Shown here piece after piece: positions 29,726-31,435 of a DNA stretch of 37,530 bases. Numbering within the stretch: position 1 is the first letter of the stretch; each line of letters opens with the position of its first letter. The DNA is from a virus. The notes beneath the pieces were generated by a model that worked only from the letters and a program-made list of their open reading frames with translations, had not been told where the DNA came from and searched no databases. The translations under genes and the position numbers were made by a program. The DNA lies in the IMG/VR virus record IMGVR_UViG_3300030107_003543, positions 31,354 to 68,883 of that record; one strand, 5' to 3'.

Positions 29726-29754
29726 TTGCATATATACTATACATGTGTTAATAT
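29726..29754 (+). promoter_or_regulatory. Sigma70-like promoter before riboswitch-like RNA
   Basis: TTGCAT at 29726-29731 and TAATAT at 29749-29754 have a 17-base spacer. Predicted transcription would start near 29761, exactly at the beginning of the structured RNA at 29763, which supports the assignment. Confidence 0.6.
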
Positions 29755-29762
29755 GCACATAT

Positions 29763-29805
29763 CGTTCAACCTCTTAGGAGGTCGCAAGTAAGCCGACTCG
29801 GAACG
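29763..29805 (+). ncRNA. Glutamine-II (downstream-peptide) riboswitch-like element
   Basis: CGTTC (29763-29767) can pair with GAACG (29801-29805) as P1. ACCTC (29769-29773) and GAGGT (29778-29782) form P2 around a TTAG loop. The core then reads CGCAAGTAAGCCGACTC. This arrangement and wording match what I know of the cyanobacterial and cyanophage downstream-peptide RNA, a glutamine-binding riboswitch class found before very short ORFs. A short ORF follows at 29821. The P2 3' strand contains AGGAGG, but it is 37 bases from the ATG, so it is part of the fold rather than the ribosome site. Ligand binding is inferred. Confidence 0.65.
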
Positions 29806-29809
29806 GATA

Positions 29810-29980
29810 CGTTCATTCTCATGGAACTACTTCTCGCCACATTATTATCATGCGAAAGTGCCCAGAGTGTTATCGACAACATCAAATCCTCAACTCCTAA
29901 TAGAGATGAGTTAGTTGAAGTTATACAACTGAGCACTGAGAAGGGATGCTTTGAGGACGCAAAAGCCGACTAAAGGAACG
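29810..29980 (+). ncRNA. Second, degenerate riboswitch-like element enclosing a short ORF
   Basis: CGTTC (29810-29814) can pair with GAACG (29976-29980), and TTCTC (29816-29820) with GAGGA (29953-29957, one G-T). They are in the same order as P1 and P2 of the element at 29763. The 3' core CGCAAAAGCCGACTAAAGGAACGG is strongly similar to that of the first copy. The loop of P2 would hold nearly the entire 50-codon ORF, whose stop lies inside the core. The core lacks the GTA seen in copy one. It may be a working element, or a decayed tandem copy upstream of the DUF4278 gene. Confidence 0.4.
29821..29973 (+). CDS. Short 'downstream peptide' ORF (50 aa)
   Basis: 50 codons starting MELLLATLLSCESAQSVIDN and ending GCFEDAKAD. 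The N-terminal dozen residues are hydrophobic with one Cys, and the rest is amphipathic and acidic. The ATG follows at once after the 5' P2 strand of the second RNA element and has no Shine-Dalgarno. The codons for EDAKAD and the stop make up that element's 3' core, so RNA and protein constraints overlap. Short peptides of this sort are typical genes under downstream-peptide riboswitches. Function unknown. Confidence 0.6.
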   Translation: MELLLATLLSCESAQSVIDNIKSSTPNRDELVEVIQLSTEKGCFEDAKAD

Positions 29981-30012
29981 GAGTAAAATCCCTACTACTT
30001 TGGAGAAAGCCA

Positions 30013-30153: not shown

Positions 30154-30184
30154 AAAGGAGGGTTATTGCAACCCTCCTTTTTTT
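30154..30184 (+). terminator. Strong rho-independent terminator
   Basis: An 11-bp stem (30154-30164 with 30070-equivalent arm 30170-30180) with a 5-base ATTGC loop is followed by a run of Ts to 30184. It ends the riboswitch/DUF4278 transcript. Confidence 0.92.
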
Positions 30185-30194
30185 ATGCTATACT
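30166..30194 (+). promoter_or_regulatory. Sigma70 promoter nested in the terminator
   Basis: TTGCAA at 30166-30171 spans the terminator loop, and TATACT at 30189-30194 (with TG at -15/-14, an extended -10) lies just after the T run, spacer 17. Transcripts would start near 30201 and serve the gene at 30215 onward. Confidence 0.7.
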
Positions 30195-30382: not shown

Positions 30383-30533
30383 TAGAGCACAACGACTTGT
30401 TAAAATGCTTGAAAGATTACTCAAGCAAGAACATCTTTATACTGATGATCAACTTAAGACTATTAAGTCTCAACTTAGAGTAGTTAAAGAAGAACTTGCA
30501 CAGTCAAAAACATCAAAAGGATTTGGTAAATGA
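30372..30533 (+). CDS. Small conserved phage protein, helical
   Basis: 53 residues from the ATG at 30372; an in-frame upstream ATG at 30342 is inside the previous gene's acidic tail. The product (SRAQRLVKMLERLLKQEHLY, then QLKTIKSQLRVVKEELAQ, ending SKGFGK) is predicted to be two helices, possibly a coiled coil. Its stop overlaps the thyX start (ATGA). Function unknown. Confidence 0.62.
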   Translation: MQTSRAQRLVKMLERLLKQEHLYTDDQLKTIKSQLRVVKEELAQSKTSKGFGK

Positions 30534-31162
30534 ATGTAAAACTTGTTACTGTTACTCCTGATGCGGAGAAACTCATGGCATATGTTGCCAGAGTATCTAA
30601 CCCATCTAATCAGGATAATGAAAAGTATGCAGGACTATTGAAGTACTGTATTAAACATAATCATTGGAGTGTGTTTGAACAGTCTTCGATGACTCTTGAA
30701 ATAGAAACTACTCGTGCTATTGCTGCACAGATATTAAGACATAGATCATTTACATTCCAAGAGTTCTCACAGAGATATGCAAGTAGTAATGATCTAGGTG
30801 ATATTGAACTACCAGAACTTCGTAGACAAGATACAAAGAACCGTCAGAATTCTACTGATGATTTAGATCCTGAAATAGTTGATAAATTTGAACGTCAGAT
30901 GATTACTTTGTTTAGTTCTGCTAAGAGTCTTTATACACAGATGTTAGATGCTGGTGTTGCTAAAGAGTGTGCTAGAATGGTATTACCACTCTGTACTCCT
31001 ACAAGGATCTACATGACTGGTTCATGTCGTTCTTGGATACATTATATCAATCTACGTTCTGCACACGGTACACAGAAGGAACACATGGAGATTGCAGAAG
31101 CATGTAGGAATGTATTTACCGAACAATTCCCTGCAGTCTCAGAAGCCCTAGAGTGGGTATAA
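30530..31162 (+). CDS. thyX: Flavin-dependent thymidylate synthase
   Basis: 210 residues. The ThyX signature RHRSFTFQEFSQRY lies at 70-83, with the FAD/dUMP-binding RHR at its start. Further conserved blocks are NHWSVFE (44-50), ARMVLPLCTPTRIYMTGSCR, which carries the substrate-binding Arg region, and the HGTQKEHMEIA stretch. The enzyme methylates dUMP to dTMP using methylene-tetrahydrofolate and reduced flavin. It feeds thymidine to phage DNA synthesis, alongside the glutaredoxin upstream. It has AAGGA 7-10 bases before the ATG. A standard cyanophage nucleotide-metabolism gene. Confidence 0.95.
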   Translation: MNVKLVTVTPDAEKLMAYVARVSNPSNQDNEKYAGLLKYCIKHNHWSVFEQSSMTLEIETTRAIAAQILRHRSFTFQEFSQRYASSNDLGDIELPELRRQDTKNRQNSTDDLDPEIVDKFERQMITLFSSAKSLYTQMLDAGVAKECARMVLPLCTPTRIYMTGSCRSWIHYINLRSAHGTQKEHMEIAEACRNVFTEQFPAVSEALEWV

Positions 31163-31186: not shown

Positions 31187-31435
31187 ATGGCAACATATCC
31201 TGTTAGAAATAAAGAAACTGGTGAAACGAAAGAAGTTGTGATGAGTGTTCATGACTGGGATCAATGGAAAGAAGACAACCCAGATTGGAGTAGAGATTTT
31301 TCAGATCCAAGTACATGTCCTGGTGTAGGTGAGGTTGGAGAATGGAAAGATAAACTTATAAAGAGAAAGCCTGGTTGGAATGAAGTTCTTGATAGAGCAT
31401 CACGACAACCTGGAGCAAATAAGTTAAAAATCTAA
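31187..31435 (+). CDS. Conserved small cyanophage protein upstream of phoH
   Basis: 82 residues: MATYPVRNKETGETKEV, then a Trp-rich middle (VHDWDQWKEDNPDWSRDFSDPSTCPGVGEVGEW) and WNEVLDRASRQPGANKLK. The middle looks like a short module of the type found in many T4-like cyanophages, with Pro-rich turns. The C-terminal WNEVLDRASRQPG is reminiscent of the tail end of FmdB-type regulators, but the zinc ribbon is absent. It has its own late promoter, and the stop overlaps the phoH start (TAATG). Function unknown. Confidence 0.68.
   Translation: MATYPVRNKETGETKEVVMSVHDWDQWKEDNPDWSRDFSDPSTCPGVGEVGEWKDKLIKRKPGWNEVLDRASRQPGANKLKI

Follow-up and report, generated by a model that had tools for sequence, protein, structure and literature searches.

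Covariation points to two interleaved glutamine-I half-aptamers with a protein gene nested in a P2 loop in T4-like cyanophages

Here we report that positions 29763-29980 of a viral DNA stretch of 37,530 nt (IMG/VR record IMGVR_UViG_3300030107_003543, positions 31,354 to 68,883; hereafter the window) probably encode one composite RNA, built of two interleaved glutamine-I half-aptamers, in which one loop houses a 50-aa gene and the glutamine-closed fold would block translation of that gene. We go further, more tentatively and with slightly less than even confidence, in proposing a double glutamine aptamer with swapped strands and with P2 loops that act as gene slots, which would control the nested peptide (made at low glutamine) and a downstream DUF4278 protein (made at high glutamine) reciprocally, perhaps cooperatively by way of two glutamine sites.

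A repeated set of riboswitch parts in cyanophages

The elements named in a preliminary description of the region lie where it placed them: CGTTC at 29763-29767 and 29810-29814, GAACG at 29801-29805 and 29976-29980, TTCTC at 29816-29820, GAGGA at 29953-29957, CGCAAAAGCCGAC at 29958-29970 and, in the ORF list, the ATG at 29821 that opens a 50-codon ORF (29821-29973). The gap between the two sets of parts, given there as five bases, is 4 nt (29806-29809). The parts as we now read them are listed in Table 1.

Table 1. Features of the composite element and its surroundings in the window
Feature	Position	Strand	Remarks
Putative promoter	29726-29754	+	-35-like TTGCAT 29726-29731, -10-like TAATAT 29749-29754; assigned by eye
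Outer P1 5' strand CGUUC (half 1)	29763-29767	+	predicted partner 29976-29980
P2a hairpin ACCUC-UUAG-GAGGU	29769-29782	+	short-loop form
Core 1, CGCAAGUA	29783-29790	+	conserved; carries AGUA half of loop-E motif
P3 5' strand AGCCGACU	29791-29798	+	predicted partner 29964-29971 in half 2, from covariation of cores 1 and 2
Inner P1 5' strand GAACG (3' end of half 1)	29801-29805	+	predicted partner 29810-29814
Linker GAUA, loop of the inner P1 hairpin	29806-29809	+	3-6 nt among relatives
Inner P1 3' strand CGUUC (5' start of half 2)	29810-29814	+	
P2b 5' strand UUCUCA	29816-29821	+	last base is the A of the nested start codon
Nested ORF, 50 aa, phrog_504 family	29821-29973	+	start at P2b, stop UAA in P3/core
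P2b 3' strand UGAGGA	29952-29957	+	
CGCAA, P3 3' strand AAGCCGACU and AAA	29958-29974	+	GAA, the other loop-E half, in most relatives
Outer P1 3' strand GAACG	29976-29980	+	
Shine-Dalgarno GGAG	30002-30005	+	
DUF4278 gene, 40 aa	30013-30135	+	
Intrinsic terminator closing the transcript	30154-30187	+	

The second set of parts is a genuine repeat, for the same order recurs elsewhere. At least 45 IMG/VR loci with relatives of the 50-aa peptide repeat the layout CGTTCA-core-GGAACG-(3-6 nt)-CGTTCA-ATG-ORF-core-GGAACG, and so do the named phages P-SSM2, P-SSM7, P-SSM4, P-TIM40, Syn33, ACG-2014i, S-BM3 and MED4-213; in two of the 45 (L031 and L048-like cases) the first 5' arm was missing from a simple scan because of a contig end or a long first loop. 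DNA patterns for core 2 alone and for P1 variants, in which the first or last GGAACG could be GHAACG and the partner letters were left free, yielded at least 226 unique loci, with the first arm identified in at least 223; these loci are related, and the counts tabulated from them are not independent events. The repeated layout is conserved in hundreds of T4-like cyanophages, and the nested peptide family is found in at least 311 phage records. A scan for the first core only found a second-half CGTTC 3-6 nt later in 116 of 116 unique first halves, so that the first half is never alone. Within the window the 23-nt core pattern occurs once against 0.00 expected per shuffled window, which places the layout beyond chance. 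PhotoRC-II and manA RNAs share contigs with glutamine composites at three loci (L073, L063, L076).

Host copies were sought on genome contigs with the pattern CGCAN{2,10}GACTRAAGGAACG, which was too loose and gave chance matches in unrelated bacteria, the exception being one Prochlorococcus single-cell contig (L190) that is phage-derived in appearance. RF01739 matches in 121 genomes of Prochlorococcus's family are single aptamers of the canonical form, with P3 as a local hairpin; of the 30 examined, none is interleaved. The P1 of host cyanobacterial aptamers, CGUUG/CAACG, has the letters of the variant inner P1 described below.

Assignment to the glutamine-I class

The preliminary description took the element to be riboswitch-like, which is borne out, and of the glutamine-II class, which is not. 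The sole Rfam match in the whole window is to RF01739 (glutamine-I, the glnA model) at 29761-29809, with 38.1 bits against a gathering threshold of 35, whereas RF01704 (glutamine-II, the downstream-peptide model) reaches 23.8 bits against a threshold of 33, and membership in that family was rejected on this score. On one half of two short-loop relatives RF01704 does attain 34.0 and 35.7 bits; glutamine-I scores higher there. By covariance model, then, the class is glutamine-I and not glutamine-II.

Rfam does not call the second half because its P2 loop contains about 130 nt. In a short-loop relative (L073), alignment to RF01739 covers the whole composite at 43.6 bits and accommodates the inner half within the P3 loop, as an insertion of 38 nt. 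Loop E, the AGUA and GAA that flank P3, is present only across the halves, with AGUA in core 1 and RAA in core 2; the window has AAA in core 2 where GAA is expected. A local P3 hairpin inside one aptamer, a glutamine-I trait, is not found in the composite, whose P3 covaries between halves.

The two halves share P1 and P3

The preliminary description read the region as two tandem riboswitches. Covariation among relatives indicates instead that 29763-29980 is one interleaved structure. The outer P1 is kept in 223 of 223 loci (CGTTC/GGAACG in 213, CGTTT/GAAACG in 10), and so is the inner P1, in which the end of half 1 would pair with the start of half 2 (GGAACG/CGTTC in 146, GCAACG/CGTTG in 77). 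Even with the partner free in the search, a second-half CGTTG accompanied every first GCAACG (77 loci), and CGTTT in the first half accompanied every last GAAACG (10 loci). Interleaved P1 pairing thus survives swaps of G-C for C-G and of C-G for U-A; tandem pairs would be broken in 79 of the 223 loci, among them the pairing once proposed between CGTTC at 29810 and the last GAACG at 29976. The suggested covariation of 29810-29820 with 29953-29980 is seen in its P2 part; the P1 strands of that interval have their partners elsewhere. Tandem pairing of each half with itself was ruled out by these compensatory changes.

P3 ties the halves together as well. Core 1 holds the AGUA of loop E without GAA, core 2 holds (G/A)AA without AGUA, and the strand that follows AGUA in core 1 co-varies with the strand that precedes RAA in core 2 (AGUCG/CGACU, AGUCA/UGACU, AGACAAC/GUUGACU, and likewise GAC-U-C/A-GCC, GAC-A-C/U-GCC, GAC-G-C/C-GCC), from which P3 is predicted to span the halves. 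Core lengths are matched, 20 nt with 20 and 23 with 23. A local P3 hairpin for each half was also considered and discarded, being impossible in the 20-nt core class and at odds with covariation that runs between halves. Given a shared P3, loop-E halves drawn from each core and strand-swapped P1s, the region does not contain two separate riboswitches. P3 in the window has two A.C mismatches (29793/29969 and 29796/29966). Both mismatches are retained in the 23-nt class, where the AGCCGACU strand is nearly self-complementary, and in some loci they are replaced by A-U pairs (AGACAAC with GUUGACU).

Folding calculations are consistent with this topology. RNAalifold, applied unprompted to 22 short-loop loci, returned the outer P1 (alignment positions 1-5/100-104) and the inner P1 (44-48/53-57); with P3 added, and with P3 tested alone too, the covariation lay above all 500 shuffles and every slid version. 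ViennaRNA at 25 C gave mean probabilities over 80 nested-ORF loci of 0.89 for the outer P1, 0.75 for the inner P1 and 0.00-0.03 for tandem P1s, and in the window itself it favors the interleaved P1/P2 set over the tandem set by 5.4 kcal/mol. The ViennaRNA probability of P3 is low (0.1-0.25), so that it is covariation that supports this helix. On the peptide tree, which is unresolved, about 16 changes of inner P1 type are counted; four co-switches fall on supported branches and all are concordant, too few for the test to reach significance. Inner P1 variants were searched for by pattern in the 23-nt class, and none was found.

We draw the outer half as a canonical glutamine-I aptamer with the outer P1, P2a and P3, in which loop E would combine the AGUA of half 1 with the GAA of half 2. 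Within its P3 loop this aptamer would house the inner half, a set of circularly permuted aptamer parts comprising the inner P1 hairpin, P2b, CGCAA and the shared P3.

A protein gene written into the RNA

The preliminary description placed a whole ORF within the second P2 loop, with its start codon at the P2 stem and its last codons and stop doubling as the RNA core, and this is borne out. In 189 of 196 P2b loops with an ORF, the frame opened by an ATG 3-5 nt past CGTTNA has its stop precisely on the TRA of GACTRAAGG, so that the core UAA or UGA is the stop codon, and in 167 of the 196 the AUG adds one or more bases to the P2b helix. The core TRA is present in short-loop loci too, where no gene requires a stop codon, which suggests that the RNA is older or independently constrained. 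One locus (L122) has a 22-nt core 2, and its nested ORF reads past the core to a later stop, the sole such frame break in the set.

The 178 distinct nested peptides (49-66 aa, mostly phrog_504) have a pN/pS of about 0.4, and the nested ORF is accordingly read as a protein-coding gene under purifying selection within an RNA loop. Two cysteines, C11 and C43, are invariant in the family alignment (A3), and an AlphaFold model has two helices with a pLDDT of 79; possibly this is a disulfide-bonded exported peptide. Searches of Pfam, NCBIfam and PDB for a function gave no match.

Constraint at the RNA level is visible within the coding sequence. In the window's group pS falls from 0.48 in mid-ORF to 0.04 in the last 8 codons, and in the 53-aa group synonymous diversity falls from 0.60 to 0.32 in the last eight. 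P2b covaries across the ORF, with C-G in 77, U-A in 27, A-U in 10 and U-G in 8 loci at position 4, and with 353 Watson-Crick pairs at positions 4-8 against 244 +/- 9.6 when partners are shuffled. In 40 non-redundant loci, synonymous codon shuffles of the ORF interior bring the P2b probability down to 0.37 from 0.72 (p 4e-7), and this halving suggests that the ORF interior is selected so that P2b can close; in the window itself the P2b probability is 0.43 (ViennaRNA). Against synonymous shuffles the folding energy has a z of -2.46 for nested ORFs; coding windows elsewhere in this phage are more stable than their shuffles too (z -1.14), which tempers this reading.

P2 loops as gene slots

The distance from CGTTCA to core 2, which measures the P2b loop, is bimodal, being either an 18-33 nt hairpin or a 144-201 nt ORF with nothing between, so that the same core and downstream gene occur whether or not an ORF is nested there; among the named phages, S-PM2 has the short-loop form. 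Among the 223 loci an ORF occupies P2b only in 173, both P2 loops in 20, P2a only in 8 and neither in 22. An occupied P2a loop is 196-230 nt long and holds an ORF of 61-69 aa; for 22 of the 28 such ORFs the stop falls within the 3' strand of P2 or on the GUAAG UAA. P2a covariation in ORF-bearing loci is confined to positions 3 and 4 (26 loci). The P2a ORFs (28 loci, e.g., L061, L067, L074, L081, L090 and L100) belong to other families, phrog_6471 and another, and their peptides have two cysteines and a hydrophobic start; the GUAAG that often supplies their UAA stop belongs to loop E. An ORF for a GIY-YIG-like endonuclease (MIYYTYYSYEPFGRGYIGSRG...; assigned by eye from its motif) lies in the inner P1 linker loop at L305 (2238-2994) and also at L323, L372 and L385, which suggests that a third loop can house a gene.

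Genomic context

The putative promoter of Table 1 was not called by a consensus scan at 29726-29754; relatives have TTGACT...TATAAT at the same place. Its -10-like box lies inside the dyad TGTGTTAATATGCACA (29744-29759), and a near-perfect palindrome surrounds the -10 box among phages with varying letters (TGTGTTAGTATTAACACA, GGTCTATAATAGACC, GGTATGCTAACATACC, TGTCATGCTATCATGACA). An inverted repeat with an arm of at least 5 is present in 85% of 173 unique upstreams (34 nt) and in 27% of shuffles; the palindrome may be an operator or a cruciform.

Downstream, a DUF4278-like gene (a TYRGV...YRG protein) follows within 29-65 nt in most loci. According to reviews, DUF4278 genes are the main partners of cyanobacterial glutamine riboswitches, DUF4278 covers the N-terminus of the glutamine synthetase inactivating factor IF17, and both glutamine riboswitch types are reported to raise expression on glutamine binding, i.e., to be ON switches (PMC6316151). 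The 30-65 nt spacer was folded in search of an expression platform shared by the DUF4278 genes and gave various weak hairpins, none of them general. A thyX-like thymidylate synthase gene (30530-31162) lies downstream of the cassette.

Proposed mechanism and alternative explanations

The pairing topology, P2b around the ORF, coding and RNA-level constraint come from the comparisons above; glutamine binding, the direction of switching and mutual exclusion we infer. Bound glutamine would stabilize P1, P2b and P3, burying the nested AUG and turning the peptide off, and DUF4278 would be on in this state, translated from a Shine-Dalgarno of its own that lies 22 nt past the fold. At low glutamine the AUG would be exposed and the peptide made; the nested ORF has no Shine-Dalgarno of its own. 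A ribosome crossing it would strip P2b, P3 and, on stopping, the end of the outer P1, so that sensing and nested translation would exclude each other on one RNA. Since both binding regions are built with strands from each half, the halves would have to fold together, and a cooperative response is possible; the inner half is without loop E, which makes a second glutamine site uncertain. The earlier suggestion of a ligand- or translation-coupled switch governing the peptide and DUF4278 is plausible.

That the region might simply hold a pair of ordinary aptamers in tandem, with a P1 apiece and the ORF in the P2 loop of the second, is suggested by the identity of all P1 strands in the window, which permits such pairing on paper, by the match of the first half alone to Rfam, and by a review that counts 157 doublet glutamine riboswitches as sequential (PMC9481103). 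We regard it as highly improbable: tandem P1s are broken in the 79 loci noted above and interleaved ones in 0, P3 and loop E require both halves, the tandem P1 probability is near zero and the linker is constantly 3-6 nt, as a hairpin loop requires. The covariation refutes tandem pairing as a general ground-state fold; such pairing could survive only as a transient folding intermediate.

The remaining alternatives accept the interleaved fold and differ in what it does. An attenuator-like device, in which access to DUF4278 is governed by ribosomes translating the nested ORF and glutamine has a small role or none, would fit a core stop codon 35-45 nt before DUF4278, where the outer P1 strand would be covered by a ribosome as it terminates, and an inner half without loop E. 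We consider it unlikely, because ORF-less short-loop relatives such as S-PM2 keep the same RNA and downstream gene, so that the nested ORF is dispensable, and because the aptamer core is conserved and the peptide, with its invariant cysteines, is under protein-level selection. Varied cargo (ORFs in P2a, P2b or both, and an endonuclease gene in the inner P1 loop) is what one would expect of genome compaction only, with small genes tolerated in a P2 loop, translated regardless and uncoupled from regulation; the AUG nonetheless sits 3-5 nt past CGUUNA in nearly all P2b ORFs, in most of them at least one AUG base extends the P2b helix, and ORF interiors favor P2b above synonymous shuffles, which leaves this explanation quite unlikely. 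Finally, an RNA that has lost its glutamine sensing and functions as a structural 5' element, e.g., in mRNA protection, could account for a core diverged from consensus (CGCAAGUA for CGGAAGUA) and for an inner half without AGUA. We think this very unlikely, as the strands CGUUCA, P2 base, CGSA and GNAACG, which carry the ligand site in solved structures (PMC6698751), are near invariant in both halves and same-class host aptamers retain the same parts.

Comparison with known systems

The cyanophage carriers of the element infect dominant ocean phototrophs, and the proposed switch would make small phage proteins of the DUF4278 kind responsive to nitrogen status, read as glutamine. On paper, the same stretch of RNA is either a folded sensor or a translated message and not both simultaneously. 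A literature search with partial coverage of key papers found neither a gene inside a riboswitch aptamer nor an interleaved glutamine riboswitch. As far as the literature was searched, these would be the first genes to have start codon, body and stop codon all incorporated in the aptamer of a riboswitch.

With the glutamine-I riboswitch (glnA RNA, RF01739) the composite has in common P1, P2, the CGSAAGUA core, P3, GAA, GNAACG and the DUF4278 partner gene, and its outer half aligns end to end with the family model. It differs in having a second, permuted aptamer-like module to close P3, where glutamine-I has a small loop, and in that one or both P2 loops contain a gene. The glutamine-II riboswitch (downstream-peptide RNA, RF01704) shares CGUUCA, CGCA, GGAACG and a short peptide gene nearby, but that gene lies downstream, whereas the composite has it inside the aptamer. 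Group I intron loops can carry homing endonuclease ORFs, another case of a gene in a peripheral loop of a structured RNA; in the composite, by contrast, the host RNA is a leader of the metabolite-sensor type, and the start and stop codons of the ORF belong to its helices and core. The tandem glycine riboswitch likewise has two homologous, interacting aptamers, each of them complete, whereas the composite shares every P1 and P3 between its halves.

Doublets offer a further comparison. The aptamer class is already known, tandem glnA RNAs are on record (PMC2864571), and 157 doublet glutamine riboswitches have been described as serial aptamers (PMC9481103). A 99-nt RF01739 match reported in cyanophage S-CREM1 (PMC9964418) is nearly twice the length of the 53-position model, which fits the composite. 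Doublets are known but drawn as serial, with the same repeated parts in sequence, whereas the composite swaps P1 and P3 strands between its halves. Many of the published doublets are probably this composite element, and we suggest that doublet glutamine riboswitches should be redrawn as one interleaved fold instead of serial aptamers.
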